Assembly: GCF_000938265.1 (NCBI RefSeq)
Contig: NZ_JYFC01000006.1
Span: 62,001-126,000, forward strand
Source of the DNA: Agreia bicolorata
Lineage (GTDB): Bacteria > Actinomycetota > Actinomycetes > Actinomycetales > Microbacteriaceae
Length of the DNA: 64,000 bases
Direction: 5' to 3'
Shown: positions 41,925-60,955 of the stretch, piece after piece
How positions within the stretch are numbered: position 1 is the stretch's first letter
Layout of the letters: each line of letters begins with the position of its first letter
Program-made: the position numbers and the translations under genes
The notes under the pieces: model-generated
Databases searched by the model: none
Seen by the model: the letters and a program-made list of their open reading frames with translations, nothing else
Told to the model about the DNA's origin: nothing

Positions 41925-42204
41925 GGGGTCAGTCAATCGTTGCTGAATATCTCTCGGCAACGGCCCGAGGCGACGGTCGCGTGAACTCGTGGTCCAGCCC
42001 GTTCGTCTGTTGGTCATCTGAAACGCCGAGCATGACGATTCGAGAAACGACGGATGCTGTGGGTAACGCCCCGCAGATCGGCGACATCTATTTAAAGGTA
42101 CGGAATTGCGAACTCTGACGAGTTCGCCCCGTCTTGAAGGACATTGGATGCGCCGGCTTCTGCTTGACGCGGGTCATCGGTCACGGTGCGGTACAGTCCC
42201 TGTG
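41925..42204. other. Divergent intergenic region with AT-rich segment and dyad
   Basis: The stretch holds TATTTAAAGG (about 42090-42099) and the perfect dyad GAACTC-TGAC-GAGTTC (42110-42125). It probably contains promoters of both the crystallin-like gene and the sigma-factor gene. Confidence 0.5.
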
Positions 42205-42756
42205 ATGAATCGGGCAGCAGATGTGCGTCTGGTCGCCGACGCTGCGCGCGGTGACGAGCGTGCCTTCGCTGCACTCTATGACCGTCACGTCGAACCCATC
42301 TACCTTCAGGCTCTCTCAGAACTGGGAGATGAAGATGATGCGCAGGAGGTGACTCAGGAGGTATTCGCGATCACCTGGCGCAAGCTGTCGAGTGTGCGGC
42401 TCGTCGATGGCTCTGCGCTGCCCTGGATGCTGGTGACGTGTACGAACGTGACGGCGAACCGGCTGCGCTCCCAACATCGCCGACCCGTCGCCGGTAGCGT
42501 CTCCGAAGAACACCCGATGGAGAACGACACAGACAGGATTGATGAGAGATTCGACTCTCATCGGCTGATGGGACGATTGGAGGACGAAGTGATGGGCATG
42601 GCTGAACTCGATCAAGCCGTCTATCGCGCCGTCATCCACGAGGAGCGCTCGTACGAGGCGACAGCCGTTCAGCTCGGCATCTCCGTCGCCTCGGTACGAA
42701 AGCGTCTCAACCGGGTTCGCACCCGTCTCCGGCAGAAGTTCGGGGGCGAGCTATGA
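42205..42756 (+). CDS. ECF-type sigma factor
   Basis: The protein has 183 residues. Sigma region 2 is DERAFAALYDRHVEPIYLQ followed by EDDAQEVTQEVFAITWRKL, and region 4 is RAVIHEERSYEATAVQLGISVASVRKRLNRVRTRLR. It directs RNA polymerase to a specific promoter set. The next gene overlaps it (ATGA) and encodes a membrane protein, a typical anti-sigma arrangement. It lies just upstream of the surface/Pst cluster and may control it. Confidence 0.93.
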   Translation: MNRAADVRLVADAARGDERAFAALYDRHVEPIYLQALSELGDEDDAQEVTQEVFAITWRKLSSVRLVDGSALPWMLVTCTNVTANRLRSQHRRPVAGSVSEEHPMENDTDRIDERFDSHRLMGRLEDEVMGMAELDQAVYRAVIHEERSYEATAVQLGISVASVRKRLNRVRTRLRQKFGGEL

Positions 42757-43232
42757 GCACCACGCCCAGCCTCAGCCCCGAGCGCCGCGCAGCGATGCGC
42801 GGATGGGTCCTCGACTATGTCGAGAAGCGCCGGCGGCGGCGCCGACGTCTCACGCTTGTCGTCGGAGGCGCCGTCGCGATCTCGGCATTGAGCGCGGCGG
42901 CTTGGATCGGGATTGCATCGCAGCACGTGCAGGAACGCGAGGTGTTCTGCTACGAGCAAGCCGACGTGGATTCGAGAATCGCCGAAGCAGAGCGCTACTC
43001 AGGCGATGAGCTCGGTGATCCTTCTGAGCACGCCGTGGCCATGTGCGATGCGCTCTGGAGCGCCGGTGTCCTCCGCGGGGACTCCGCGGCAGAGCCCACT
43101 TCTGATGTCGGCGGACATCCGGTGCCCGATCTCACCCTCTGCGTGCGGCCCGATCAGTCGCTCGCCGTGTTTCCGAACACGAGCGACGAGTTCTGTCTCG
43201 CTCACGGAATGACCCCCAGAACGGCTCACTGA
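42753..43232 (+). CDS. Single-span membrane protein, probable anti-sigma partner
   Basis: The protein has 159 residues: a basic cytoplasmic start (KRRRRRRRLT), one membrane helix (LVVGGAVAISALSAAAWIGIA), and an extracytoplasmic part with four cysteines. It lacks a recognisable zinc anti-sigma HxxxCxxC motif, and the cytoplasmic part is short, so if it binds the sigma factor it uses an unfamiliar domain. The assignment rests on translational coupling. Confidence 0.6.
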   Translation: MSTTPSLSPERRAAMRGWVLDYVEKRRRRRRRLTLVVGGAVAISALSAAAWIGIASQHVQEREVFCYEQADVDSRIAEAERYSGDELGDPSEHAVAMCDALWSAGVLRGDSAAEPTSDVGGHPVPDLTLCVRPDQSLAVFPNTSDEFCLAHGMTPRTAH

Positions 43233-44161: not shown

Positions 44162-45430
44162 ATGAGAAAAGCAAACTCCGTCGCGAAGGTCGCCATCACG
44201 GCTGGCCTCGCCTTTGGCCTGATCGCGGCTGGTGCTTCCACCGCCCAGGCTGACCCCAGCGCATCTGGTCGCACGTACCAGATGGCCGGATCCGACACGA
44301 TCCAGGGCGTCGGCAACGGCCTCACGAATGGATACACCGTTGGTTCCACCACGGTGTCAGCCTTCGCACCGAACATCGGCTCGTGGGATGCCTTCGGTTC
44401 TGCGACGATCACCCCCAAGACAGGCTCGATGTTCACACGTCCCGCCGGATCTGGTGACGGCGTCAAGGCGCTGAGCGCGTCGTGGAACACGGCCGCGGGC
44501 AAGGACACCTGGACTGATGCCAACGGTGTGGTCTCTCCTTCCCTGCAGCCGAGCGGCACCCACGCCCTCGACTTCGCCCGCTCGTCGTCTAAGCCGAGCA
44601 CGCCGGTCAACCCCGGCTTGTCGACTGACAAGCTGACCTGGGTTCCCCTGGCACGCGACGCGGTCTCGGTCGCGTTCCAGAGCGCAGGAGTGTCGGGCAT
44701 CTCGATCAGCAATCTCGACACCGCCGATCTCACCTTCCTCTACAGCGGAACCGGAAGCCGCACGTCGACCGCTCTCGGTGGAACCATCACCCGCTCCACT
44801 GTCAACGCTTCTGACCCGACCGACCCGGCGAACGACCCGGTCATCACGGTCGGCAGCACCTCGGTGAGCGTGCACCCGGTTCTGCCGACGCAGAGCTCGG
44901 GAACGCGCACCTTCTTCATCGGAGCCATCGGCGTGACCACGGCCACCACAGGATCGTGGGTGCGCCAGGGCGTGCAGGAGAACACCGCCACCGAGATCAA
45001 CGCCTCGGGTGAGATCGCTCCGTTCTCGGCAGCCCAGTGGATCCAGCAGAAGAACGGTGTCAGCGGAACGACCAACACCTTCACCGGAAGCAACGCCTCG
45101 AGCCTCAACCTGCTCAGCCTGAACACGCTGGCCCCCACGGCCGGATCGGGTTCGTCGCTGACGCCGGGCGCCTTGTTCGGCGACGCAACAGTGGTGCCGG
45201 GTACCACCACTGACCAGACCCTCTCGCCAGTCTTCGCTCGCGACGTGTTCACCGTTGTTCCGACGGCGAACTACAACAACGACGTGGCAGTCAAGAACCG
45301 GGTGGATTCCCTGCGCAGCGCGACTCGTAGCTCCACCTCCAGCGTCAAGATCGTGGCGGACTACGGCTTCAAGCCGCTGGCTTACACGGCCGCAGGTGCC
45401 GGCGTCTTCCACGCCAACTTCACCAACTAA
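44162..45430 (+). CDS. Secreted PstS-like protein
   Basis: The protein has 422 residues with a classical signal peptide cut near STAQA. The mature start, YQMAGSDTIQGVGNGL, resembles the phosphate-loop start of PstS, and LDFARSSSKPS and LTWVPLARDAVSVAF match further PstS-like blocks. It has no lipobox and no membrane anchor, unlike normal PstS, so it may be released or held by partners. It opens the long co-directional cluster and has a good AAGGA-type ribosome-binding site. Two strong hairpins follow it. Confidence 0.75.
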   Translation: MRKANSVAKVAITAGLAFGLIAAGASTAQADPSASGRTYQMAGSDTIQGVGNGLTNGYTVGSTTVSAFAPNIGSWDAFGSATITPKTGSMFTRPAGSGDGVKALSASWNTAAGKDTWTDANGVVSPSLQPSGTHALDFARSSSKPSTPVNPGLSTDKLTWVPLARDAVSVAFQSAGVSGISISNLDTADLTFLYSGTGSRTSTALGGTITRSTVNASDPTDPANDPVITVGSTSVSVHPVLPTQSSGTRTFFIGAIGVTTATTGSWVRQGVQENTATEINASGEIAPFSAAQWIQQKNGVSGTTNTFTGSNASSLNLLSLNTLAPTAGSGSSLTPGALFGDATVVPGTTTDQTLSPVFARDVFTVVPTANYNNDVAVKNRVDSLRSATRSSTSSVKIVADYGFKPLAYTAAGAGVFHANFTN

Positions 45431-47346: not shown

Positions 47347-50046
47347 ATGCACGCTTCTTCCCTTGCCCGCCTTTCTTCCGTTGCCCTCGCAGCGGCTCTC
47401 GTTGTCCTTGCTGCTCCGCCGTCGCAGGCCGCGCCAGCTGAACCTCTTGCCTGGGGGCCACAGGGGACCGTCGGCTCCGATTCGTCCGTGACCGTGCACT
47501 GGAATGCGGACGGAAATCCAGGCACGAGTATCGTGCCGCGGGACGCGAGCCAGGTGCTCCCGTTCACGGGAGGCAAGACCTATGACGATGTGCGCCCTCA
47601 GGTCAACGAGGCCTACGCTCAGACCTTTAACCCCGAGAGCCCGCTCGGCGGTCTCTCTATGACGGTTTCTCAAACCACCAACTTGGTGAACCAGGCGGTG
47701 ACCCTGGACGTGACCGGCCTGCCCGGCTTCGATGGGGTGAATGCCGCAGGGGTCTACCTGCAAGTCTTCCAATGCTGGGGGGCGCCACTAGATGGAAAAC
47801 CCGACCCTGCGGCCACGAACCCCGACCCTCGCACGTGTCAGACAGGCGTAGGCACTGACAGACCGATCGACAGCCCGGACTACCGCACGATCAATAGGGA
47901 TCCCCTTGTGAAGACGGGTGAACTTGCCGACCAGCAGGTTATGCCGTTCCTCACCGCGGCCGGTGTCGAAGCGGGTGCCGAAGAGATCGACGCCCACCTC
48001 AATCGAGCGACCACGAACGAGATTCCGAGGCTCGTCTCGTCGAACGCAGATGGAACAGCATCGCGCACGTTCGAGGTGCAGACGGGCATCGAAGCACCCG
48101 ACCTCGCATGCGGCCTGCAGCCGGACGCGCCGAGTTCGCAGAATTGCTGGCTCGTCGCCGTTCCGATCATCTCGTCCGTCGCCAACCGTTTCGGGGCGAG
48201 CAACGGCTGGCCCTCGGGGCTCACCCCCTCCCTTTGGGCGCAGCGCATGCAGGTGCGGCTCGGATTTCAAGACGTGGCTTCGGGCTGCGAGGGTGGCAAT
48301 AGCCGCATTCTGGCGGCCGGATCAGAGCTGGCGACCTACGCGATGTCGAGCTGGGTTCCTGGCCTCTGCGGCCAGGCGAAGATCGCCACAGGCTACACCC
48401 AGCTGAGTGACGACCAGGCGCGACGCCAACTTGAATCCGGCGCGAACGATTTCATCTTCACCTCTCAGGCCGCTTCGGCGAGCACGGCGGCGATCTATAC
48501 CCCTTCGGCCGTGGCGGGAACCGTGATCGGACTGACCATCGACTACCGGCCATGCGGCTTCTACGACGGTGAAACGGTCGAGCACTGCGGCTACCCGGAT
48601 CGCGCAACGGCAGAAGCCGAGTGGGCGAAGGCAGGGCAGCCGATCACTGATCTGCGACTCAACGCGCGGTTGGTGGCCAAGCTGCTCACTCAGACCTACC
48701 AGGTCGACTCTCCCCCCGGAACCGACATCGGCCAGAAGGCGCCGTGGGCGATCAACGGCATGAAACTCGAGCTCGATCCTGAGTTCTTGGCCCTGAACCC
48801 ACAGCTGAAATACCACGTTCCTTACACTCGGGCCAGCGCGCTCACCCGCCTCGAAACTGAGGGCCTCAAGTCTGACGCAGCCGCGAGGCTCTGGGCCTGG
48901 ATTCTGGGGGACGCCGACGGCAAGAGCTTTCTGAACGGCTGCCCGGACGCCGACGGCATAACCGTCAATCCGTGGTACTCGACACGCAGCTACGACGGCT
49001 GCCAGGCAGACGCGGCCAGGCTAGAGGTCGCCGCCGCGGCGAAACGCGACGCGACCGTCACGCCGACCGGATTCGCGCGAGATAAGGCCGCAAGTTACCC
49101 GCCCTCAGCGTCGGCGTACCCGCAGTCTCTCTTCGCGGAGTCGACCCCCGTGGGGTCACCCGACTCGCCCGAGAGCTACGTGGGCCCCGCCACTATGGTC
49201 GACCTGTACCCGAGCTACGCCGACCAGGCGGCTACAGCCCGCGTTGGCTTTCGCTCGCAGCCGTCGCGAGGCAGCTGGTGCACGAACCTCGACGGTGGCT
49301 GCTTCCCATCGCGATGGAAGCCCACGGTAGACCTGACCGCCACCCAGGGCACCCGCACCACCATCGTTGTGACCGACTCGGCGAACGCGGCACGCTACCA
49401 ATTGCCCACCGCGACGCTCTGCGACGACGCGGGCACCCACTGTGTTGGCGCGACGAGCCAATCGCTTCAGAAGGCGGTCGACGCCTTCGGGCAGGCCGCG
49501 CCCGGCGCCGTACGCACCGCCCCCGCTGTGCCCGACTACGCCGGCGGAGCGTACCCTCTGACCAACGTTGTTTACGCGGCTGCGGGTACGGCGAAGCTGA
49601 CCACAACCCAGGCCGCCGCCTACGCGGGCATGCTCGACTTCATCACCACCACCGGTCAGACGCCAGGGCAGCAGACGGGCCAGCTCAAGCCGGGCTTCGC
49701 TCCCCTGACAGCCACCCTGTCGGCTGATGCGGCGGCCTCGGTGGCGGCTCTGAGGTCATTCCAGCCGGCAGCTACCACGAAGCCGGCGGCGGCCACCGCA
49801 GCGAAACCAGCGGCCGTTACGGCCGGCCCGGTCGTGCCCAAGACCGTGGCGCCCCCCGCTGCGAGCGTGGCCGCCCCGACGACGCCGTCACCCGCTTCGA
49901 CCGCGGCACCGGTTGCCGGTGGTATCACGCCGATAACCGAGGTGGGATTTCCCCAATTCGGCCTGGTCGGAGGACTGGCGGCGGCTCTGGGAGCAGGGCT
50001 CTTCGCCCCCTTGCTCGCCCGGCGCAGAAAGGCGCTCGACGAATGA
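47347..50046 (+). CDS. Large PstS-like surface protein with C-terminal membrane anchor
   Basis: The protein has 899 residues. It has a signal peptide (cut near QAAPA). A long central part contains PstS-like blocks such as IYTPSAVAGTVIGLTIDY and LRLNARLVAKLLTQTYQ, and the later stretch GGAYPLTNVVYAAAG resembles the C-terminal lobe. Many cysteines are present. A Pro/Ala/Thr linker (about 795-855) precedes one hydrophobic helix and the tail ARRRKALDE. It is about three times longer than a normal phosphate-binding protein. Its stop overlaps pstC (ATGA), so it belongs to the transporter operon. Confidence 0.75.
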   Translation: MHASSLARLSSVALAAALVVLAAPPSQAAPAEPLAWGPQGTVGSDSSVTVHWNADGNPGTSIVPRDASQVLPFTGGKTYDDVRPQVNEAYAQTFNPESPLGGLSMTVSQTTNLVNQAVTLDVTGLPGFDGVNAAGVYLQVFQCWGAPLDGKPDPAATNPDPRTCQTGVGTDRPIDSPDYRTINRDPLVKTGELADQQVMPFLTAAGVEAGAEEIDAHLNRATTNEIPRLVSSNADGTASRTFEVQTGIEAPDLACGLQPDAPSSQNCWLVAVPIISSVANRFGASNGWPSGLTPSLWAQRMQVRLGFQDVASGCEGGNSRILAAGSELATYAMSSWVPGLCGQAKIATGYTQLSDDQARRQLESGANDFIFTSQAASASTAAIYTPSAVAGTVIGLTIDYRPCGFYDGETVEHCGYPDRATAEAEWAKAGQPITDLRLNARLVAKLLTQTYQVDSPPGTDIGQKAPWAINGMKLELDPEFLALNPQLKYHVPYTRASALTRLETEGLKSDAAARLWAWILGDADGKSFLNGCPDADGITVNPWYSTRSYDGCQADAARLEVAAAAKRDATVTPTGFARDKAASYPPSASAYPQSLFAESTPVGSPDSPESYVGPATMVDLYPSYADQAATARVGFRSQPSRGSWCTNLDGGCFPSRWKPTVDLTATQGTRTTIVVTDSANAARYQLPTATLCDDAGTHCVGATSQSLQKAVDAFGQAAPGAVRTAPAVPDYAGGAYPLTNVVYAAAGTAKLTTTQAAAYAGMLDFITTTGQTPGQQTGQLKPGFAPLTATLSADAAASVAALRSFQPAATTKPAAATAAKPAAVTAGPVVPKTVAPPAASVAAPTTPSPASTAAPVAGGITPITEVGFPQFGLVGGLAAALGAGLFAPLLARRRKALDE

Positions 50047-51092
50047 CCGAGACAACCGCAATCGCTCCTCGGCTTACTGCGCAGCCGTCTTATCCGGAGG
50101 ATGGCAGCGACGCGGCGGCCCCTCGCGCGCTGAAGTACGTCATCGAGCGGGCGGACAGAACTTTCCGAGGGGTTGCACGGGGTGGTGGCCTGATTGTTCT
50201 GACCATCATGGTGCTCGTGGGTCTATACCTGACCATCAACGCTGTCCAGGCGGTTTCTGCGGTCGGAATTGTGGAGTTCGTCACCGAAACCGCCTGGTCG
50301 CCCGAGACCAACAGGTTCGGCGTCGCGGCTCTTCTCACGGGAACGGTGCTGATCGCCTTGGTGGCGATTGTCATCTCGCTGCCACTGGCGCTCGGTATGT
50401 CGCTGTTCATCACAGAAATCACCGCAGGTGGTTTTCAGCGGTTCATGCGCTCGGTCATCGACCTGATGGCGGCAGTTCCCTCAGTCGTGTTCGGTCTTTG
50501 GGGGCTGGCCTTTCTGCAGCCCGCCATTGTGCCGTTTTCGCGCTGGCTCTCGACGTGGTTCGGCTGGATCCCCATCTTCGCGGTCGACGGCGTGGACCCA
50601 ACGAATCCGCTACCGAACACCTCTCTCTTCACGAGCTCGACCTTCATCGCCGGTCTCGTGGTCGCCATGATGGTGATCCCCATCATGAGCAGCCTGATGA
50701 TCGAATCGTTTTCTCGGGCACCCATCGGCGAGCGTGAAGGCGCATACGCGCTCGGTGCCACGCGATGGGGAATGATCCGCTCGGTCGTGCTGCCCTTCGG
50801 GAAGGGCGGTGTTATCGGGGGAACGATGCTGGGGCTCGGGCGGGCGCTCGGCGAAACGATCGCCATCTACCTGATCATCAGTCCCATCTTCGATATCAAT
50901 CCGCACATCCTGCAGAGGGGTGCCAACTCGATCGCTGCGCACATAGCGCTGCGCTACGGCGAGGCGAATTCCTTCTCGATGAGCGCGCTGATGGCGGCCG
51001 GTCTCGCACTGTTCGTCTTGACCATGGTGATCAACTTCACCGCATCCACCGTCATTGCCCGTTCGCGATCCGGCGCAGAAAGCGAGGGCTAA
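50043..51092 (+). CDS. pstC: Phosphate-type ABC transporter permease PstC
   Basis: The protein has 349 residues with six membrane helices. RSVIDLMAAVPSVVFGLWGL and the ATPase loop REGAYALGATRWGMIRSVVLPFGKGG are PstC signatures; LGRALGETIAIYL follows. It has a 45-residue cytoplasmic N-terminus. It probably forms the membrane channel with PstA. The neighbourhood is unusual for a Pst operon: surface proteins and sortase-fold genes instead of phoU. Confidence 0.93.
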   Translation: MTETTAIAPRLTAQPSYPEDGSDAAAPRALKYVIERADRTFRGVARGGGLIVLTIMVLVGLYLTINAVQAVSAVGIVEFVTETAWSPETNRFGVAALLTGTVLIALVAIVISLPLALGMSLFITEITAGGFQRFMRSVIDLMAAVPSVVFGLWGLAFLQPAIVPFSRWLSTWFGWIPIFAVDGVDPTNPLPNTSLFTSSTFIAGLVVAMMVIPIMSSLMIESFSRAPIGEREGAYALGATRWGMIRSVVLPFGKGGVIGGTMLGLGRALGETIAIYLIISPIFDINPHILQRGANSIAAHIALRYGEANSFSMSALMAAGLALFVLTMVINFTASTVIARSRSGAESEG

Positions 51093-51094
51093 GC

Positions 51095-52498
51095 GTGAGC
51101 ATCGACCACGACGTGCGGTCTCCCCACGAATCGATCATCGAACTGGACGAGAGCCTTCGCCTAGAGGAGTTCTCCGAGCCGGTCGCCGCGCCCTCCACCA
51201 CTCTGCCAAGGCTCGCACTGGCTGAGGAGCCGGAAGAACCGCCGAAAGTTGTCGTCGGAATTTCGCGGGACGACGTCTTGACGATCGCAGGTGCCGCGGT
51301 CTCTGGGCTGTCAGTGGGAGTGGTGCTGAGCCTCGTGCTCGGCGTTGTTCCTGTTGGCTGGATGTTCTTCGTCTCGTACCTCTGGTTCGTGGCGATATAC
51401 ACCACCCTCGTGTTCCTGCGTGATCGTGGACCCGCAGTGCGAGATCGGTTCTGGACGGTGATGCTTTCGTCTGCCGGAGTTGTCGTCGTGGCAACCCTCG
51501 GCTTGGTCATCGGATTCACGCTGCTGAGCGGCCAGGAGGTATTCGCGCAGGCCTTCGACCCGAGCAGCGGTCAGGCGATCTGGGAACGCTTTCATTTCTT
51601 GACCCTCGATATGGGAGGGGTCGGGCCCTTGGCGGCGCTGAAGGACGGCGGCATTCTGCACGCCATCGTCGGAACCCTCATACAGATCGGCGTCGCCCTG
51701 GCGATCACCGTTCCGTTGGGAATCACGACCGCTCTCTTTCTCGCCGAGGTGCGGGGCAAGTTCGCCCGTTTTGTACGCACGATCGTCGAAGCCATGACCG
51801 CTCTGCCCTCGGTCGTCGCCGGACTCTTCATTTACGCGGCCATCATCGTTGGGATCACCCACGAATTCAACGGGTTCGCGGCGTCCCTCGCCATCACCGT
51901 GCTCATGCTGCCGATCATGATTCGTTCCTCCGATGTGGTGCTGCGCCTGGTGCCGGGAAACCTGCGGGAGGCCGGACTTGCTCTGGGTGCGAGCCAGTGG
52001 TCCGTTGTCTGGAGGGTCGTCCTGCCCACAGTCCGCTCCGGACTGACCACGGCGATAATCCTGGCAACGGCCCACGGAATCGGTGAGACCGCGCCGGTTC
52101 TTCTCACCGCGGGAGTCACGTCCAACCTCAACATCAACCCGTTCAGCGGGCCGATGACCTCGCTTCCACTGGCCGCCCTCGAGTTCGTCAAGAACTCGCA
52201 GAACACGATGAAGGCCAGAGGCTTCGCCACCGCCGCAGTGCTGCTCGTTCTGGTGCTCGTTCTGTTCTTGATCGCTCGGAAGATCGGTGGACAAGAACCC
52301 GGCAAGCTCACGCCCGTTCAGCGAGCGAAGCTCGGCCAGCGCTCTCGGGCCACGGCGGCTCGGATGGCTCGCAACAGCCAACGGGCAGCCGCCGACCGGA
52401 CCATCTCACCACCCGGCGGCGAGCCTGCGCCAGCACATGCTGAACCCGACCCGCATCCACAATCGCCATCCCAGCAGAGCACCGGAGACAAAATATGA
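51095..52498 (+). CDS. pstA: Phosphate-type ABC transporter permease PstA, extended
   Basis: The protein has 467 residues, compared with about 300 for most PstA. Residues 1-55 are an acidic cytoplasmic extension, and two or three extra membrane helices (about 57-130) precede the PstA core. The core has TIVEAMTALPSVVAGLFIYAA-like sequence and the ATPase loop REAGLALGASQWSVVWRVVLPT. The last 75 residues are hydrophilic (Arg/Ala, then Pro/His/Gln). GTG 51095 is chosen because it follows pstC by two bases. Confidence 0.9.
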   Translation: MSIDHDVRSPHESIIELDESLRLEEFSEPVAAPSTTLPRLALAEEPEEPPKVVVGISRDDVLTIAGAAVSGLSVGVVLSLVLGVVPVGWMFFVSYLWFVAIYTTLVFLRDRGPAVRDRFWTVMLSSAGVVVVATLGLVIGFTLLSGQEVFAQAFDPSSGQAIWERFHFLTLDMGGVGPLAALKDGGILHAIVGTLIQIGVALAITVPLGITTALFLAEVRGKFARFVRTIVEAMTALPSVVAGLFIYAAIIVGITHEFNGFAASLAITVLMLPIMIRSSDVVLRLVPGNLREAGLALGASQWSVVWRVVLPTVRSGLTTAIILATAHGIGETAPVLLTAGVTSNLNINPFSGPMTSLPLAALEFVKNSQNTMKARGFATAAVLLVLVLVLFLIARKIGGQEPGKLTPVQRAKLGQRSRATAARMARNSQRAAADRTISPPGGEPAPAHAEPDPHPQSPSQQSTGDKI

Positions 52499-54153
52499 TC
52501 CGCCCACGTTTGCGCGCCCTCAGCCGTGCCCTCGGAGTCACTCTCGTGTTCGGCCTCATCGCCGGCGGGGCATTGCCGGCCGCGGCCGCCAGCTACCAGC
52601 GCATCTCCGGCGAAGGCTCGAGCTGGGCGGCGCTGGCCGTGCAGCAGTGGCAGGCAGACGTAAAGTCCCAGGGAGTTACCGTCGACTACGTTCCCAGCGG
52701 CTCGTCGCAAGGGCGAAAGAACTTCGCTGGCAGAATCGATGCCAAGTTCGCCGTGTCTGAGATCCCTTATCGCGGTGACACCGCCGACAAGCGCGACGAC
52801 AGCTATCCGGATTTCAATTTCACCATGATGCCTATGGTCGCCGGCGGCACCAGTTTTATGTACAACCTCGAGGTGAACGGGCAGCAGTTTCGAGACCTCA
52901 ATCTCTCGCAGCAGGCTGCAGCGGGCATTTTCTCCGGCACGATCACCCAGTGGAATGACCCGGCGATCGCGGCTGACAATCCCGGCGTGAACCTGCCTGC
53001 GCAGCCCATCACGGTGGTCGTGCGATCAGAAGGATCGGGTGCAACGGCACAATTCACCCTCTGGATGCTTCGCCAGTTTCCGGCTGCGTATCAGCAGTTG
53101 TGCTCGGTGAGCGGGGAGTGCGACGGCACTCACGCCACGAGCTACTTTCCTGCTCAGAACAAAGCCAACTTCGTGGCCCAGAGCGGCTCGGACGGCGTGA
53201 CGAAGTACACCGTGCAGACCTCTGGCACGATCAATTACGACGAGTTCGCATACGCGCAGCAGGCAGGGTTTCCCGTGGCGAATCTGAAGAACGCCGCCGG
53301 TTTCTACACGACACCGACCGACACGGCGGTGGCGGTCGGACTGACCCAGGCAGTTATCAACAGCGACCCGAACTCAGAGAATTACCTTGCGCAGGACTTG
53401 TCGAACGTATATGCCTATCAAGATCCGCGCAGCTATGCGCTCTCGTCCTATTCCTACTTCATGGTGCCGACGCAGACGACGAACCAGTTCGACGAGTCGC
53501 ACGGTGCCACGCTCGGCTACTTCACCCAGTACTCGCTGTGCGAGGGACAGCAGACGATGGGAACCCTGGGGTACTCGCCGCTGCCGATGAATCTCGTTCT
53601 CGCAGCGATGACGGAGATTCGGAAAATTCCGGGGCTTGATGCGCCGACCACGGCCAAATTGGATGCGGTGGCGAACTCCGCCCTCGGCGCGGATGGAGGA
53701 AACCCGTGCAACAACCCGACCTTCCAGCCGGGGGACAACCCATCGCACAACGTTCTCGTCGATAAGGCACCATTCCCGGCGGGCTGCGACGAGGCGTGCC
53801 AGGCACCGTGGCGCCTCGCAAGCGCCGGCGTCGCTGCCTCGGGTCCGACCTTCGATGCCGGCGCGCCGGCCGCCGCCGGGGGCGCTGGCGCGGGGGCAGC
53901 CGCGGCAGATAGCACGGCAGCAGCCGCGTCCACCAAAGTGTGTGATTCCGACACCGGCGTCTGTGTCGAAGGAACCGCAAATACGGTGGCGGGCGGCAAG
54001 GTGACACCCGTCTCGACCGTTATTCCTGGTCAGCAGGGGTGGGCCGGACCGCAGACCCTGATGGTTCTCGTCGGGGGGCTTCTCGCACTCTTCCTCGTGG
54101 CGCCGGCACTCGTCTCGCGTGTGCTCTCCAAGGCCCCACGGAAACGCATATGA
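52495..54153 (+). CDS. pstS: PstS-type phosphate-binding protein, anchored by a C-terminal helix
   Basis: The protein has 552 residues with a signal peptide (cut near ALPAAAAS). ISGEGSSWAALAVQQWQADV is the PstS phosphate-loop start, and AVSEIPYRGD, IFSGTITQWNDPAIA and VVRSEGSGATAQFTLWM follow in the usual order. Instead of a lipobox it ends with a Gly/Ala-rich linker, a cysteine-containing segment, a hydrophobic helix (about 522-542) and LSKAPRKRI. The start overlaps pstA. Confidence 0.9.
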   Translation: MIRPRLRALSRALGVTLVFGLIAGGALPAAAASYQRISGEGSSWAALAVQQWQADVKSQGVTVDYVPSGSSQGRKNFAGRIDAKFAVSEIPYRGDTADKRDDSYPDFNFTMMPMVAGGTSFMYNLEVNGQQFRDLNLSQQAAAGIFSGTITQWNDPAIAADNPGVNLPAQPITVVVRSEGSGATAQFTLWMLRQFPAAYQQLCSVSGECDGTHATSYFPAQNKANFVAQSGSDGVTKYTVQTSGTINYDEFAYAQQAGFPVANLKNAAGFYTTPTDTAVAVGLTQAVINSDPNSENYLAQDLSNVYAYQDPRSYALSSYSYFMVPTQTTNQFDESHGATLGYFTQYSLCEGQQTMGTLGYSPLPMNLVLAAMTEIRKIPGLDAPTTAKLDAVANSALGADGGNPCNNPTFQPGDNPSHNVLVDKAPFPAGCDEACQAPWRLASAGVAASGPTFDAGAPAAAGGAGAGAAAADSTAAAASTKVCDSDTGVCVEGTANTVAGGKVTPVSTVIPGQQGWAGPQTLMVLVGGLLALFLVAPALVSRVLSKAPRKRI

Positions 54154-55130
54154 CCATCGTGACGGAGCGGCCTGACTCCGCGGCAGACAACGTACCTCCA
54201 CCAGGGGGAGTGTTTGCGGAGCACATGCCGCCCAGAAAACCGAGTCCGGCCGCGTCACGACCGGCGAAAATCGCGGCCCCGGCCCTGGAGAGATTTCTCT
54301 CTCTCATGCTGGTGATGGTGTCTGTCACGATCCTCGCGCTGCTGGCCAACCTCGTGCTGGTTTCTCCCGTGCAGCATTACGCGAGCCAGAACCGGCTCTA
54401 CCAGGACATCCGGCTGGCCCTCGCCGAGGGATCAGCACCGACGGGGCCGGTGAATCCGGACGGCACCCTCGTGGAACCGGGAACCGCACTGGGGGTGCTG
54501 TACGCGCCCATCATCGGTATCGGCCACGAGGTGATGGTCGAGGGTACTTCGGCAGCACAGACCATGGAGGGCATCGGGCATCGCCGAGACACGGTACTGC
54601 CGTGCCAAGTGGGCACGAGCGTTCTCATGGCGCGCTCCGGAGCCTATGGAGGAGTCGGCCAGGCCTTCACAAAGCTTGTGCCGGGCGACAAGTTCTCCGT
54701 GACGGTGACACAGGGGTCCTGCACCTACGAGGTGATCTCGGCCCGTCGTCCGGGCGATCAGGCACCATCCGCGCCGGCTGCCCGCGAAGGACGGTTGACC
54801 CTCACCACTGCCTCTGGAGCACCCTTTATGCCTACCGAGGTATATCGAGTCGACGCCAAGCTGGTGACCGATGCGTTCGACCACCCTTCCGTCGCGTTTC
54901 CGACGGGCGCCCTGCCCTCTTCGGAGGCCGCTATGGGAACGGATACGAGCAACCTCTTCGCGCTCGTTCTGTTGCTCGAGCTGCTGGTCGGCGTAGCGAT
55001 CGGCGTCTCCTGGCTGTGGCGTCGATGGGGTCGCTGGCAAACCTGGATCGTCGGGGCCCCGGCGATCATCGCCGTCGGGCTGCTCTCAGCCACGGCTATC
55101 AATCAATGGCTCCTGCCGAATCTGCTCTGA
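54150..55130 (+). CDS. Sortase-fold membrane protein lacking catalytic His and Cys
   Basis: The protein has 326 residues: a hydrophobic helix at 49-71, an extracytoplasmic sortase-like domain (110-240), and two C-terminal helices (270-288, 298-318). The fold is read from GIGHRRDTVLPCQVGTSVLM, QAFTKLVPGDKFSVTV and the end block EGRLTLTTASG...YRVDAKL. Where sortases have the AGHR histidine this has ARSG (Arg162), and where they have L-T-T-Cys this has Ala221; the following Arg (Arg233) is kept. It is therefore predicted to be inactive as a transpeptidase, perhaps a scaffold. It lies between the PstS-type and pstB genes. Confidence 0.7.
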   Translation: MTIVTERPDSAADNVPPPGGVFAEHMPPRKPSPAASRPAKIAAPALERFLSLMLVMVSVTILALLANLVLVSPVQHYASQNRLYQDIRLALAEGSAPTGPVNPDGTLVEPGTALGVLYAPIIGIGHEVMVEGTSAAQTMEGIGHRRDTVLPCQVGTSVLMARSGAYGGVGQAFTKLVPGDKFSVTVTQGSCTYEVISARRPGDQAPSAPAAREGRLTLTTASGAPFMPTEVYRVDAKLVTDAFDHPSVAFPTGALPSSEAAMGTDTSNLFALVLLLELLVGVAIGVSWLWRRWGRWQTWIVGAPAIIAVGLLSATAINQWLLPNLL

Positions 55131-55167: not shown

Positions 55168-56121
55168 ATGATCACTCTTCCTTTCAGCCGCCGGCAGCAG
55201 CCGGGGCGGTACGCGCGCGCGACCGACAACGAGTCCGCGGCTCCCACCGTGCAAACGGACATAATTCTTCCCGACATCGATTCTCCGAGCGGTTTGTCGG
55301 CGAACGGTGGCTTCGATGTGAGGCGAGAACTGTTCGGCGAAACCTCCGCCGGTGAACTCGTGGCCGACTCGATCACTGCGTGGTTCGGCACGCACAAGGT
55401 GCTCGACCGAGTATCACTGACGATGGAGACCGGCAAAGTAACCGCACTTATCGGTCCTTCGGGGTGCGGCAAGTCCACCTTCCTCCGCATCCTCAATCGA
55501 ATGCATGAGATGGTGCCGTCGGCGTCGCTCTCCGGGGAGGTGCGTCTCGACGGCAGCGATCTCTACGAGCGCAGCCAGAGGCTGACGTGGGCGAGACGTC
55601 AGGTCGGCATGATCTTTCAGAAGCCCAATCCTTTCCCGGCGATGTCGATCTACGAGAACACGATCGCGGCGCTGAATCTCACTGGCGTTCGGGCGAACCG
55701 TGAGCAGAAGGATCAGCTCGTCGAGGACAGTCTGCGCAAAGCGTCATTGTGGGATGAGGTCAAGGATCGGCTCGAGCAGCCGGGTGGTGGGTTGTCTGGC
55801 GGGCAACAGCAAAGGCTCTGCATCGCCCGCGCCCTCGCCGTGGCTCCGCGAGTCTTGCTCATGGACGAACCCTGCTCGGCACTCGACCCGACGTCGACGC
55901 GACGCGTGGAGGAGACCATCGCGCAACTCCGCGGTCAGATGACCATCGTGATCGTGACGCATAACATGCAGCAGGCCGCGCGGGTCTCCGACGAATGTGC
56001 GTTCTTCTTGGCTGCCCAGAACACACCGGGTGTGATTGTGGAGCACGGAGATACCGGTGCGATGTTCAATAATCCGCAGGATGAGCGCACATTCGACTAT
56101 GTCAACGGACGGTTCGGCTAG
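55168..56121 (+). CDS. pstB: Phosphate-type ABC transporter ATPase PstB
   Basis: The protein has 317 residues, about 60 more than usual because of an N-terminal extension (1-63) of low complexity. The catalytic motifs are intact: Walker A IGPSGCGKST, Q-loop MIFQKPNPFPAMSIYEN, signature LSGGQQQRL, and Walker B VLLMDEPCSALDP; THNMQQAAR holds the switch His. It should energise the adjacent PstC/PstA. No phoU follows. Confidence 0.95.
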   Translation: MITLPFSRRQQPGRYARATDNESAAPTVQTDIILPDIDSPSGLSANGGFDVRRELFGETSAGELVADSITAWFGTHKVLDRVSLTMETGKVTALIGPSGCGKSTFLRILNRMHEMVPSASLSGEVRLDGSDLYERSQRLTWARRQVGMIFQKPNPFPAMSIYENTIAALNLTGVRANREQKDQLVEDSLRKASLWDEVKDRLEQPGGGLSGGQQQRLCIARALAVAPRVLLMDEPCSALDPTSTRRVEETIAQLRGQMTIVIVTHNMQQAARVSDECAFFLAAQNTPGVIVEHGDTGAMFNNPQDERTFDYVNGRFG

Positions 56122-56124
56122 GCC

Positions 56125-56877
56125 ATGTCGATTCGTGCGATCTTTGGCTTCGCCCTGGCGGCTTTTCTCGTCGTCGGCGGAGTGGGCTATGTGGCGGCCA
56201 TGCCTCGGCCCGCCCAAATGGTCGGACTGCCTGTGGCGGAACAAGTTCCTCTCGGCGCGTCGGTCACAGTTCTTCCCAAGCAGGTAGGTATCGAGGGAGG
56301 TGATAGCGGTCAACAGGTGACGATCGACGGGCAGTGGATGCTCTCGATAGGAGCGACCGCCGGGATTCCTGCGCGGGCGCTCCAGGCGTACGCGTCGGCC
56401 GCGAACACCATCGATACCGCCCGACCCGACTGCCAGCTGGGGTGGAACACCCTGGCGGCCATCGGCATGGTCGAGTCCGGACACGGCACGCACGGCGGCG
56501 CCTCCATCGGTCCGGATGGCCAGCTGATCGGTAGCATCCTGGGCCCCGTTCTCGACGGTGTGGACTTCGACGCGGTCCCCGACACAGACCGAGGAGTGCT
56601 CGACGGTGACAGCCAATGGGATCGCGCCGTAGGGCCGTTCCAGTTCATCCCATCGACCTGGGCGGCATACGGCGTCGATGCATCGGGAGACGGTGTGGCC
56701 GACCCGAATCAGATCGACGATGCCGCCTTGACGGCCGCGGTGTATCTCTGCACCGCGGGTCAGGACCTCTCGACCGATGCCGGGTGGACTGCCGCGGTGC
56801 GGGCCTACAACAACAACGACGACTACGTCAGCGCGGTGCGAACGCAGTCTGCCGAGTACGCGCAGCTCGCCGGCTGA
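56125..56877 (+). CDS. Lytic murein transglycosylase
   Basis: The protein has 250 residues: one N-terminal membrane or signal helix, then a lysozyme-like SLT/MltB-type domain. The catalytic Glu is Glu117 in AAIGMVESGHGTHGG, and GPFQFIPSTWAAYGVD and YNNNDDYV are typical of the family. It would cut peptidoglycan glycan strands outside the membrane, perhaps to make room for a surface structure. The stop overlaps the next start (TGATG). Confidence 0.9.
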   Translation: MSIRAIFGFALAAFLVVGGVGYVAAMPRPAQMVGLPVAEQVPLGASVTVLPKQVGIEGGDSGQQVTIDGQWMLSIGATAGIPARALQAYASAANTIDTARPDCQLGWNTLAAIGMVESGHGTHGGASIGPDGQLIGSILGPVLDGVDFDAVPDTDRGVLDGDSQWDRAVGPFQFIPSTWAAYGVDASGDGVADPNQIDDAALTAAVYLCTAGQDLSTDAGWTAAVRAYNNNDDYVSAVRTQSAEYAQLAG

Positions 56878-57674
56878 TGACGCTGTTCCAGGAGACGCCC
56901 CCGAAGAGGCGCAGCAGCTATCGGCCCGTGAATCGGCCTGATGGCCGGCGGGTGCGGCCCCGGACGAGTCGTGCGCGTCGGTCGCTTCGTTCGCGTGTCG
57001 TCGGTGCGGGCCTCCTCGCCTTCGCCGGCCTGTGTGTCGCGTCAGCTCTGGTGCTCGGGGTGCTCGTTGCTACCGGATCGCCCACGGTCGTACCTCTCAT
57101 GGAGGCCGTGTCCCCTCCGGTCGATGAGCAGGCTGCCGCTGTCGCCGAAGACGCGGCGGCGGAGCAGCTCGTCGAGCAGCAGAACGGGGGCGTCGCACCG
57201 GATCCGATCCCGGGGCAGCCCCTGCGCATCCAGATACAGGCCGTGGGCCTCGACGCCGATGTGCGTGCCATGGGCGTGCCGGAGAGTCGCGAGCTCGACC
57301 CGCCGGGGCCCTATCGCGCGTACTGGATCTCTGACTACGGCGTGGCCGGGCCCGCCAGCACCAACACGACGTACCTCGCGGGGCATACCTACCGAGACGG
57401 CTCGGCCGTCTTCAACCCGTTGCTCGACGTTCCGCAGTCTGCGGGGGCGGTCTCGCCCGGCGAGTCGATCGTGATCACGACTCCTGAGGGCGACGTCTCC
57501 TACACGATCGAATCCACCGAGCTCTACGACAAGACGAGTGTCGAGCAGCAGACGAAGCTGTGGGAGCAGGTGCCTGGTCGTCTCGTGGTCGTGACCTGTT
57601 TTCAGTACAACGGCGGCACCTCGTCGAGCCAGAATTTCGTCGTCTACGCTCAGCTCGACCCCGGGCAGGCGTAA
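56877..57674 (+). CDS. Sortase, class F-like
   Basis: The protein has 265 residues with a basic N-terminus and one membrane helix (about 41-66). The sortase domain has the catalytic His170 in TYLAGHTYRDGSAVFNPL and Cys241 in LVVVTCFQYNGG. The third catalytic residue is less clear: the position normally held by Arg reads SSQNFVVYAQ (Asn253). It would join proteins to the envelope at a sorting signal. No LPxTG substrate is visible in this window. It overlaps the genes on both sides. Confidence 0.85.
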   Translation: MTLFQETPPKRRSSYRPVNRPDGRRVRPRTSRARRSLRSRVVGAGLLAFAGLCVASALVLGVLVATGSPTVVPLMEAVSPPVDEQAAAVAEDAAAEQLVEQQNGGVAPDPIPGQPLRIQIQAVGLDADVRAMGVPESRELDPPGPYRAYWISDYGVAGPASTNTTYLAGHTYRDGSAVFNPLLDVPQSAGAVSPGESIVITTPEGDVSYTIESTELYDKTSVEQQTKLWEQVPGRLVVVTCFQYNGGTSSSQNFVVYAQLDPGQA

Positions 57675-59530
57675 TGGCGGAACTGCTCGCGGGCCGCTAC
57701 GAGATCGGTCCTGTTCTGACGAGTACGGCCCTTGTTCTGAGGCATCGAGGCCGCGACACTCAACTCGATCGCGATGTCACGGTCACGTTTCTGCGCCAGG
57801 AGCTGGCCGAAGACGAGGCCAGCGTCGGACTTTTCTCGGCGATCATCTCGGTGACGTCTGAGCTGTCGCATCCCGGCATCGTCGCCGTGTACGACGCCGG
57901 ATCTGGCACGTTCGGCGATGTGCCTGTGCGCTGGGCGGTCGGCGAGGCAGTCGACGCGCCTAACGTCGACGAGTTCTCGCCCACACCACAGCAGGCAGAG
58001 CGGTGGGGAGCGGGCATGCTCGATATCGCCGAGCAGCTGGTTCAGGCCATGCAGAGCGCCCATGGCGACGGCGTCGTGCACGGCAACCTCGGACCTTCGA
58101 CGGTGCTGCTGCAGACATGCCCAGACGGCAGCCTGCGTGCGTGCGTGACAGGTTTCGGACCGCAGGCGGCCGATCTGGCGGTCTTGTCGAATCCGGCGGT
58201 GACCCAGCACATGTGGCAGGCGTTCACCGAGCAGGTCGAGTACCCGTCACCCGAGCAGCAGGCCGGTCGTGCGCCGACCCGCCGCAGCGATATCTACGGC
58301 TTCGGATGCGTGCTGGCCGCGTTGCTGCTGCACGTCGAGCGAGCCCCGGGTGGCGTTGACAGCGACGTCGCGCGGACCGCGGCGCTCGCCCGCATCGCTG
58401 AACAGGCGATGAGTGAGAAACCGGCGGATCGCCAGCACTCCTTCGCCGTGGTGGGCGAGCAGTTGCGCTGGGTCCGCTCGGCGAAGTCGCTCGATCACCT
58501 CGGCGAGAGCGGTGGTGATAGCGAGGTTTCGCCCCCCACGATGGTTCTGCCTTTCGCCCCGACGGCACGGGTCGAGCCGGCACCGGCCACGGAACGGTTG
58601 ACCTACCTGCCGGTCAAACGCGTGAAGCGCACGCGCCGAGCCCGTTCGGCAGGATCGAGCCGTGGTCGTCGATCGTCGCCCGGTGGGCGGATGTTCGCGG
58701 CTCTCACTCTCGTTGTGCTCATTGTGGCCGGGATCGGGTGGGGGATCAGCCAGTCTGAGACCCAGGCCTCATCGGCGTCGATCACCATCCCGTCTGTGGC
58801 CGGGCAGGAACTCGGCGCCGCAACAACGCTGCTCGGTTCGGTGGGACTCTCGCTCGGAGGCCAGATGCAGCGGCCGGACGCCATCGTGCCGGCCGGTCTC
58901 GTCTCGGCGACCGAGCCGGCGGCCGGCATTCAGGTGCCGGTCGGGCACTCGGTGACGCTCGTGATCTCCAGCGGACCCGATGCCCGCTCCGTGCCGCAGT
59001 TGCAGGCACTCTCTCTGGCGTCTGCCCAGGAGGCGCTTGCCGCCTCCGGTCTTGTGGCCGGGGAGATCGTGCAGCGGGACGGCCTTGCGGCTGCAGGTTC
59101 CGTGCTCGACAGCGATCCACCCTTCGGCACGTTGGTTTCCGCGGGGGTGGTCGTCGACATCGTGGTGGCGAGCGGCAATCAGCGTGTGCCGTCGGGTCTC
59201 CCCGGGCAGGCGGGCGTCGCGGCATCCCAACAACTTGCGGCCGCAGGCCTGGCGCCGCAGTTGCTCAGCCGACCGAGCAGCGACGTCGCCACCGGGGTTG
59301 TCATCGAGGTCATCCCTGGCGAAGGCTCCAGCGTGCCCCTCGGCACGATCGTCACGCTGGTCGTGGCGGAGTACACACCGCGTGCGGCTGACGGCGTGCC
59401 CACGACGACGCCGACGACAGCTTTGCCGACCAAGACGCCGCCGTCCCCTACCTCCGCCCCGACATCGAAGCCGACAACGTTCTCGCCCACCTCGCCGGCG
59501 GCGCAGCAGGATCACAACGGCGATGGGTGA
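57674..59530 (+). CDS. PASTA-domain pseudokinase (PknB-like)
   Basis: The protein has 618 residues. Residues 8-265 follow a PknB-type kinase fold, but the ATP lysine is missing (VTVTFL, Thr38 where VAVK is expected), HRD is HGN (136-138) and DFG is GFG (160-162). The helix-F Asp (RRSDIYGFG) is kept. One membrane helix (340-357) leads to three PASTA domains (about 370-435, 436-500, 501-565) and a Pro/Thr tail. PASTA domains bind peptidoglycan fragments. It is probably a non-catalytic sensor or scaffold. It overlaps the sortase gene (TAATG). Confidence 0.85.
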   Translation: MAELLAGRYEIGPVLTSTALVLRHRGRDTQLDRDVTVTFLRQELAEDEASVGLFSAIISVTSELSHPGIVAVYDAGSGTFGDVPVRWAVGEAVDAPNVDEFSPTPQQAERWGAGMLDIAEQLVQAMQSAHGDGVVHGNLGPSTVLLQTCPDGSLRACVTGFGPQAADLAVLSNPAVTQHMWQAFTEQVEYPSPEQQAGRAPTRRSDIYGFGCVLAALLLHVERAPGGVDSDVARTAALARIAEQAMSEKPADRQHSFAVVGEQLRWVRSAKSLDHLGESGGDSEVSPPTMVLPFAPTARVEPAPATERLTYLPVKRVKRTRRARSAGSSRGRRSSPGGRMFAALTLVVLIVAGIGWGISQSETQASSASITIPSVAGQELGAATTLLGSVGLSLGGQMQRPDAIVPAGLVSATEPAAGIQVPVGHSVTLVISSGPDARSVPQLQALSLASAQEALAASGLVAGEIVQRDGLAAAGSVLDSDPPFGTLVSAGVVVDIVVASGNQRVPSGLPGQAGVAASQQLAAAGLAPQLLSRPSSDVATGVVIEVIPGEGSSVPLGTIVTLVVAEYTPRAADGVPTTTPTTALPTKTPPSPTSAPTSKPTTFSPTSPAAQQDHNGDG

Positions 59531-60188
59531 TTCGGGCAAGGCCAAGCCGGTCCACCGCACGGCCATTTCGATCGATGTTTTCGAAAGCGCGGATTCGCAG
59601 GCGCTCAAGGACTTCCTCGAGCGGCGCCGTCGCATCCTGTCGCCGCTCTCGCGCAACTCCCCGCTCTCCGCGCAGCATTCGTCGGGTGGCCGACCGCTCA
59701 GCGGACCCATCTTCACGTGGACGGTCTTTGCGGGGAACGGCCGATCCATCGCATCGAGTGCGGAACTGTTCAGCAACGAGATTTCCGCAGAGCGCAGCGC
59801 GATCACGACCATGGCGAGGGTGGACGACATCGAGGTTCTGCGGGTGCGGGCCCACTCGGCGCCCATGCACGCGTGGGCAATGAATGTAGATGGGGCACCC
59901 CGACTCATCGCGCTCCGATACTTCACGACGGTGCGCCTGCGAGACCGCAACGCAGCGAGTGTTCTCGCCGCGCTCCACGATGGAATGGTCGTTCCGCCGG
60001 GTGATGGCCCTCCGCACCAGCGAATGCCGCCTCCCCTTTCGCCGCGTCGGATCACCGATGACCTACTGGCCGAGGTTGCGGGACCACTCAAACTTCGGGG
60101 CGAGGGCCGGCCGATCCGGCCGATCCTGAGGAGTTACATCTCGCAACCGGTCCGCAGCAGGATCCGCACAGACCGGGACGGTTCATGA
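59523..60188 (+). CDS. Protein with two tandem repeats, paralogue of the 43.5-kb gene
   Basis: The protein has 221 residues. Its repeats read IFTWTVFAGNGRSIASSAEL and MHAWAMNVDGAPRLIALRYF, the same pattern as in the gene at 43506, and the N-terminal ISIDVFESADSQALKDF corresponds to its VTFLEFTDSRQL. It has no signal peptide or membrane helix. The two paralogues stand at opposite ends of the surface/Pst cluster. It overlaps the previous gene by 8 bp and the next by ATGA. Confidence 0.65.
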   Translation: MGDSGKAKPVHRTAISIDVFESADSQALKDFLERRRRILSPLSRNSPLSAQHSSGGRPLSGPIFTWTVFAGNGRSIASSAELFSNEISAERSAITTMARVDDIEVLRVRAHSAPMHAWAMNVDGAPRLIALRYFTTVRLRDRNAASVLAALHDGMVVPPGDGPPHQRMPPPLSPRRITDDLLAEVAGPLKLRGEGRPIRPILRSYISQPVRSRIRTDRDGS

Positions 60189-60955
60189 CCGAGGTGCGCA
60201 TAAGCGAACGGCCGCGTGGCGGCGCTGGTTCTTCCGCCGGGCTGTTCCGATCGTTTCACCGAGCTCGCTTGCGTGCGGCGCTTCGCGTGCGAGTGCCGCT
60301 GCTCGTGTTGGCGAGCGCCGCGCTCGCGGCAGGTATATGGGGAGGCATCACCGCGACGCCGTCGGCCCGCGTTGATGCTGCGACTCAACCGACGGGCCGG
60401 GTCGCTGGTCCGGCGGTCGCCGCGCCTGTGGCGCAGCTTGCGGGCGGCGCGACCGACCCGGCGGCGGCTCAGGCCGCGGCGTCCCCGGCGGTGGTCTCCG
60501 CGGCGATCGATCCGGCGGATGGCCAACCCATCGCATCCATCTCGCCGGTGCCGGCTGTGCCGCCGCAGGCTGCGACGCCGGTCGCACCGACGCCCCTCTA
60601 TTCGATCTCGGTGACGGCTCGCGGGCACCAGACCGAGTTGGATGCTTGTCAGTGGGTTCGTATGGATGTCGGCGCGATCGCCCCGATCGTAGGCGCCCAC
60701 AACTTCTGCCACGGCGACATCGTGCTCGACATGACGATGGGGGAGATCGTGAGCGTGACGGGCACCGACCTCGACGGCGACTACCAGATCACCGGTAGCC
60801 GGGATGCTCGGGCCGGCGAGGATGCGGCCCGAGCCACCGCGGGCCTCTCCGGTGACCTCCTGTTTCAGACCTGCTACTGGGACGACGCGAGAGGCCTTCG
60901 ACTGGTGACGGCCGTCAAGGTGGATCTCTCGCTACCCCCTAGCGTGGTCGGCTGA
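60185..60955 (+). CDS. Membrane protein with possible sortase-like domain
   Basis: The protein has 256 residues: a basic start, one helix (about 34-54), an Ala/Pro/Val-rich linker (60-138) and a compact end domain. His172 (PIVGAHNFCHGD), Cys230 (LLFQTCYWDD) and Arg239 (GLRLVTAVKV) have the order and spacing (58 and 9 residues) of sortase active sites, with a MGEIVSVTG strand between. The similarity is weak and could be chance. It is the last gene of the cluster; ccsB follows with its own -10 box. Confidence 0.6.
   Translation: MTEVRISERPRGGAGSSAGLFRSFHRARLRAALRVRVPLLVLASAALAAGIWGGITATPSARVDAATQPTGRVAGPAVAAPVAQLAGGATDPAAAQAAASPAVVSAAIDPADGQPIASISPVPAVPPQAATPVAPTPLYSISVTARGHQTELDACQWVRMDVGAIAPIVGAHNFCHGDIVLDMTMGEIVSVTGTDLDGDYQITGSRDARAGEDAARATAGLSGDLLFQTCYWDDARGLRLVTAVKVDLSLPPSVVG

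Follow-up and report, generated by a model that had tools for sequence, protein, structure and literature searches.

What can a PASTA receptor do for a cell when its kinase domain has lost all three catalytic motifs? The question is raised by a gene of Agreia bicolorata that lies in the window analysed here, a stretch of 64,000 nucleotides of contig NZ_JYFC01000006.1 (Table 1). Its open reading frame is intact, and the product joins the kinase fold, transmembrane helix and PASTA ectodomain of a PASTA receptor to the general mark of a pseudokinase, a kinase fold from which every catalytic motif is gone. Pseudokinases and PASTA kinases are each already known; no paper on a PASTA pseudokinase was found in the literature searched, which leaves most subscription papers outside its scope, and a 2025 review of seven pseudokinase families has the word PASTA only in its reference list (PMC12599244). 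The gene comes at the end of a widely distributed operon encoding a phosphate-type transporter, cell-surface proteins and a sortase homologue that is itself dead, a pseudosortase. The reading that we favour, at a probability of roughly 0.45, is that the protein is the dead PASTA pseudoreceptor of a surface-exposed second Pst-type complex and pairs with an active kinase.

Table 1. Genes of the operon and next to it, and features of the pseudokinase, numbered from the first letter of the window
Feature	Position	Strand	Basis or remark
ECF sigma factor and adjacent 159-aa gene	42106..43232	+	PF04542, PF08281; order same in congener G007
s44, secreted protein, no family, conserved in locus	44162..45430	+	
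Ig-like (Big_3_5) surface protein, C-terminal membrane helix	45534..47210	+	PF16640, E 6.5e-25
bigS, 899-aa surface protein, C-terminal membrane helix	47347..50046	+	TIGR00975, E 1e-5, residues 665-796
PstC-type permease	50043..51092	+	PF00528, E 1e-8
PstA-type permease	51089..52498	+	PF00528, E 3e-13
PstS with C-terminal membrane anchor and D56E (SEIP)	52495..54153	+	TIGR00975, E 2e-52
Pseudosortase, class E-like homologue without catalytic His/Cys	54150..55130	+	
PstB-type ABC ATPase	55168..56121	+	PF00005, E 1.5e-35; Walker A and signature motif intact by eye
Lytic transglycosylase (SLT_2)	56125..56877	+	PF13406, E 5e-10; candidate catalytic Glu117 by eye
Sortase-domain protein, class F-like, His and Cys kept	56877..57674	+	PF04203, E 4e-11
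PASTA pseudokinase, 618 aa	57674..59530	+	Kinase fold without catalytic residues, one transmembrane helix, three PASTA domains
Pseudokinase domain, residues 1-267	57674..58474	+	AlphaFold2 pLDDT 86 (residues 1-276); PknB best PDB match, Z 25
Thr38 replacing VAIK lysine	57785..57787	+	PknB alignment
HGNLGPST replacing HRDxKxxN, residues 136-143	58079..58102	+	PknB alignment
GFG replacing DFG, residues 160-162	58151..58159	+	PknB alignment
Juxtamembrane TMVLP motif	58538..58552	+	Common to G007 orthologue
Transmembrane helix, residues ~340-358	58691..58747	+	Sequence
Three PASTA domains, residues ~370-568	58781..59377	+	Pfam PF03793, three stretches
Protein X, 221 aa	59523..60188	+	Overlaps pseudokinase stop
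Membrane-anchored protein, sortase-like H..C..R pattern	60185..60955	+	Pattern read by eye

The preliminary description had called the kinase domain degenerate, with Thr38, HGN and GFG in place of the ATP lysine, the HRD aspartate and the DFG aspartate, and in an alignment with M. tuberculosis PknB, the other kinases of the genome and PknB kinases of relatives these replacements came out exactly as named. The VAIK lysine of PknB (K40) is T38, the αC glutamate (E59) is I57, HRD has become H136-G137-N138, the catalytic-loop residues K140 and N143 are Gly and Thr, D156 of DFG is Gly, and G18 and G20 of the glycine loop are both Thr. Catalytic residues at shifted positions, a possibility that the same description had raised, were not found: a shifted VAIK lysine is rejected because residues 1-100 contain no lysine at all, K249 being the only one in residues 1-270. 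Judged by these residues, ATP chemistry is very unlikely. Seven other kinase matches of the same genome lie above the Pfam cut-off, six of them with the canonical VAxK/HRD/DFG set, while the seventh (L007) is itself divergent. The product itself reaches 28.7 bits with Pkinase PF00069, under the cut-off of 31.7, in a match that begins only at profile position 49, and it fails the equivalog threshold of the NCBIfam model PknB_PASTA_kin, with 217 bits against 450.

That the rest of the fold, the membrane helix and three PASTA domains remain was also claimed, and this holds. The model of the kinase domain has a mean pLDDT of 86.4 and a pTM of 0.85; its top PDB match is PknB (5u94; Z 25.1, rmsd 2.6 over 235 residues), which ranks first in Foldseek as well, and PF03793 matches the ectodomain with E 6e-24, the three domains starting near residues 370, 440 and 505. 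Between kinase fold and membrane, the TMVLP stretch is a possible phospho-site, and related T-x-V-[LM] motifs occur in several of the operon kinases.

Four genomes, this one and three more, share the dead motifs HGxLGP and GFGP, and their pseudokinases form one clade (support 100/100). A profile built from the four, run on 398 genomes of the family, picks out these four alone, at 454-510 bits, the next-best match being a PknB-like protein at 114 bits. The named carriers are Glaciihabitans tibetensis and Leifsonia sp. ALI-44-B, from a scan with exact peptide patterns that divergent copies can escape. A fifth and more divergent pseudokinase (L183), with PASTA-like repeats, belongs to another family of the same order, and its gene follows pstB and a sortase gene. 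The five-member profile, run on 396 genomes of the order, gave no further clear case; one borderline match at 140 bits, a kinase of genome G600, falls near the ordinary kinases of that genome's family. In genome G611 the pseudokinase lacks much of the C-lobe. The pseudokinase is thus rare, and all five cases found lie in the same type of operon, downstream of pstB. Two membrane pseudokinases of Streptomyces without PASTA domains have the similar motifs HGDLGP and TGFG (L119, 9965-11635; L120, 3027-4694), and near the operon in a genome of another class a PASTA protein (L195, 13957-15459, oriented) keeps VALK and shows HGA at the HRD position and LSG at the DFG position. A role as a defence kinase was considered and rejected, the PADLOC matches being generic kinase hits.

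The gene is under purifying selection throughout its structured parts. Compared with its orthologue in the congener G007, the gene of this genome (G000) has a pN/pS of 0.31 in the kinase domain and 0.30 in the transmembrane and PASTA part, so that the dead domain is as constrained as the sensor, whereas two parts evolve fast, the linker next to the membrane (0.56) and the tail (0.66). With this value of 0.31 and frames intact in several genera, a sequencing error or pseudogene is rejected. Conservation of HGxLGP and GFGP could also mean that the altered pocket catalyses some other reaction, as in pseudokinases of the SelO type, which we consider highly improbable for an N-lobe without lysine in a fold that has neither the metal-binding Asp nor the αC Glu. 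Over the block 56877-59530, which joins the neighbouring sortase gene to the pseudokinase, pS to G007 is about 0.5-0.56 as against 0.62-0.71 in the flanking genes, which suggests a later exchange of the block.

The genes upstream of the pseudokinase are co-directional, and their stops and starts mostly overlap, as the sortase stop overlaps the pseudokinase start. Upstream of the operon lies the ECF sigma factor, and the 159-residue gene beside it probably encodes its anti-sigma factor. PstS, PstC, PstA and PstB are all present together. Of the surface proteins, bigS, which is conserved in relatives, matches PstS weakly, and s44, which has no PDB match, is PstS-like by motif only. The operon PstS retains the phosphate-loop motif RS[DE]GSG; in 30 of 32 homologues its phosphate-site Asp56 is Glu (SEIP). 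The Asp of the canonical SDxP motif we take to be Asp56 in E. coli numbering, and the genome's other PstS (C12) has it, as SDSP. One might guess from the substitution that the operon PstS has a changed anion specificity. Since a separate PstS exists elsewhere in the genome, the operon is a second Pst-like system, and it differs from canonical PstSCAB, with which it shares the four components and the RS[DE]GSG motif, in the C-terminal anchor and prevailing D56E of its PstS and in its extra PstS-like surface proteins. The last gene of Table 1 encodes a protein whose conserved H..QTC..RLV pattern resembles a sortase triad; it has no family match and no convincing PDB match.

This neighbourhood of Pst genes and PstS-like proteins is conserved in relatives. 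Used as a probe, the pseudosortase finds matches of at least about 35% identity in about 60 of 299 genomes of the family, and its profile picks up members in 28 of 347 genomes when the order is searched and in 11 of 346 when the phylum is, some of them outside the class; the operon is a phylum-wide Pst-type transporter and cell-surface locus. The preliminary description had linked the pseudokinase to a surface system, and all five pseudokinases do sit in such an operon, but the Pst-type ABC transporter and PstS-like proteins that form its core went unmentioned. Relatives' operons also encode a WxLIP_PGBD protein (PF06030, E 1e-8) and a protein that matches WxL weakly, and in this they resemble the WxL/WxLIP (DUF916) clusters; unlike those, they add a Pst transporter and the pseudosortase, and the window's own copy has the Ig-like protein instead. 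No paper joining any three of WxL domain, phosphate ABC transporter, sortase and Microbacteriaceae was found in the literature searched, from which most subscription papers are absent.

Two sortases had been read next to the pseudokinase, and only one of them stands as such: the protein at 56877-57674, which matches the NCBIfam class F model with E 3e-10, under its cut-off, keeps His and Cys, while the one at 54150-55130 has neither. The alignment of the latter covers 64 operon copies, and in every one both catalytic residues are replaced, His by Arg (63 copies) or Lys (one) and Cys by Ala, Gly, Ser or Thr. His and Cys are kept in only two aligned sequences (L197 and L177), both outside Pst surface operons; a C-terminal PNL motif is conserved in the members aligned. 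The homology to sortases is firm on profile evidence: Pfam Sortase matches 10 of 10 members, and the family profile reaches E 7e-15 against PDB sortases, although an AlphaFold2 model built from three sequences only has a pLDDT of 46. Class E sortases, whose catalytic residues are His, Cys and Arg (PMC5148588), include SrtE1 of Streptomyces, to which the pseudosortase is homologous by profile and from which it differs in having lost the His and Cys. The term pseudosortase did not occur in the literature searched, most subscription papers being outside it.

What, then, does the pseudokinase contribute to such an operon? Five relatives have, directly after pstB, a PASTA kinase with a VAxK-type lysine, HRD and DFG or DYG, and at locus L189 a PASTA kinase lies upstream of pstC. 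PASTA kinases or pseudokinases occur in about 10 of 63 loci where about one is expected (rough binomial P 8e-8, a value that overstates certainty, since it treats the loci as independent and takes its kinase density from this genome). Because most operons are without one, the PASTA protein is an accessory and not a core part. Operon kinases and pseudokinases form two clades, supported at 100/99 and 100/100 respectively, whose deeper placement is unsure given the long branches of the kinase tree; with separate clades, and with one genome that has both, decay of the operon's own active kinase is not favoured. That genome is Glaciihabitans, whose operon combines an active-type PASTA kinase with a pseudokinase that stops before any transmembrane helix or PASTA domain. 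Such a truncated protein argues against a role as a PASTA-only anchor, in which the transmembrane and PASTA part would tether or localise operon products at the septum and the kinase fold would be a leftover. The well-kept PASTA domains, the lost catalysis and the fast-evolving juxtamembrane region and tail would all suit an anchor, yet it predicts the opposite of what Glaciihabitans retains and leaves the equal constraint on the kinase domain unexplained, and we regard it as quite unlikely. We find it unlikely, too, that the protein is a scaffold that binds PstB, PstA or protein X and gates transport by wall state with no active kinase involved. The position downstream of pstB in five of five cases would fit a scaffold, as would protein X, which follows the pseudokinase in three genomes (this one, G007 and G151), but the active kinase in the same slot of relatives suggests that phosphorylation is part of the circuit.

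Since ATP chemistry is very unlikely by sequence, the retained parts of the protein point to binding, and most likely it is a wall-sensing pseudoreceptor that works through protein-protein contact. The back-to-back dimer residues of PknB R10, L33 and R35 are kept in five of five pseudokinases, and D76 in four of five, with Glu in one; L33 and D76, which correspond to L31 and D74 here, have been lost by the operon's active kinases. In the dimer of the MviN pseudokinase (ActPs3, M. tuberculosis) the analogous Leu and Asp contacts, L750 and D793, are crucial (PMC12599244), and back-to-back pairing has been proposed to act allosterically in PknB autophosphorylation (PMC6333020). From the kept residues and both precedents we favour a pseudoreceptor that has an active Hanks kinase as its partner and would thereby couple the state of the wall to the Pst surface complex. 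Ordinary PknB kinases, however, also have R10, L33 and D76, and common descent may by itself explain why these are kept. Circumstantially, a partnership is best supported by Glaciihabitans, where a soluble pseudokinase stands beside an active PASTA kinase. In the pseudoreceptor that we propose, the PASTA domains would bind nascent or uncrosslinked peptidoglycan, by analogy with the extracytoplasmic domain of PknB, for which an interaction with lipid II and muropeptides has been reported (PMC6428115). The cytoplasmic domain would be a binding module, most likely joined back-to-back through its N-lobe to an active Hanks kinase, which would be the housekeeping PknB-type kinase at C14:406031 in this genome and, in Glaciihabitans, the PASTA kinase of the operon itself. 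The protein may also be phosphorylated in its TMVLP stretch. Thus engaged, the pseudoreceptor would position or gate the transporter and its PstS-like proteins where the wall grows, beside the lytic transglycosylase that the operon encodes. Cell-wall cues may govern assembly of the surface system, as the preliminary description suggested. The same domain plan and dimer residues could instead let the protein compete with PknB for muropeptides and dimerisation and so damp PknB signalling generally, a decoy role that we consider distinctly improbable since strict linkage to the operon favours a local one.

The protein resembles the PASTA kinases PknB and Stk1 in kinase fold, single transmembrane helix, extracellular PASTA domains and N-lobe dimer residues, and differs from them in lacking catalytic residues, in its place within a Pst surface operon and in forming its own clade. 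MviN-associated pseudokinases had been suggested for comparison, and like the operon pseudokinase ActPs3 is actinobacterial, has all three motifs degraded and stands in a wall-related context. Kinship is not supported: the operon pseudokinase has no MurJ flippase part, carrying a single transmembrane helix and PASTA domains instead, no MviN chain was among the 60 PDB sequences matched, and the activation-loop deletion that is a hallmark of ActPs3 was not seen by eye. The seven reviewed bacterial families as a whole (ActPs1-3, GLW, CP1, DYD, DLHK; PMC12599244) are likewise pseudokinases, several of them membrane-bound.

A wider reading, which we hold to be doubtful, is that of an actinobacterial, phylum-wide machine at the cell surface: a Pst-type transporter built around dead enzymes, with signalling and assembly achieved by binding rather than catalysis. 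The pseudosortase would hold, uncut, the sorting-signal-like tails of the PstS-family surface proteins, and in some lineages the PASTA pseudokinase, alone or with an active PASTA kinase, would report the state of the wall. More surprising than the pseudokinase itself is the locus around it, in which the pseudosortase is conserved. In this one operon, wall sensing is brought together with dead sortases of a conserved family and with a second Pst-like transporter whose anion site is altered. A PASTA receptor that has stayed under selection after the loss of catalysis separates wall sensing from phosphorylation, which makes the pseudokinase a means of studying the functions that PASTA receptors have apart from kinase activity.
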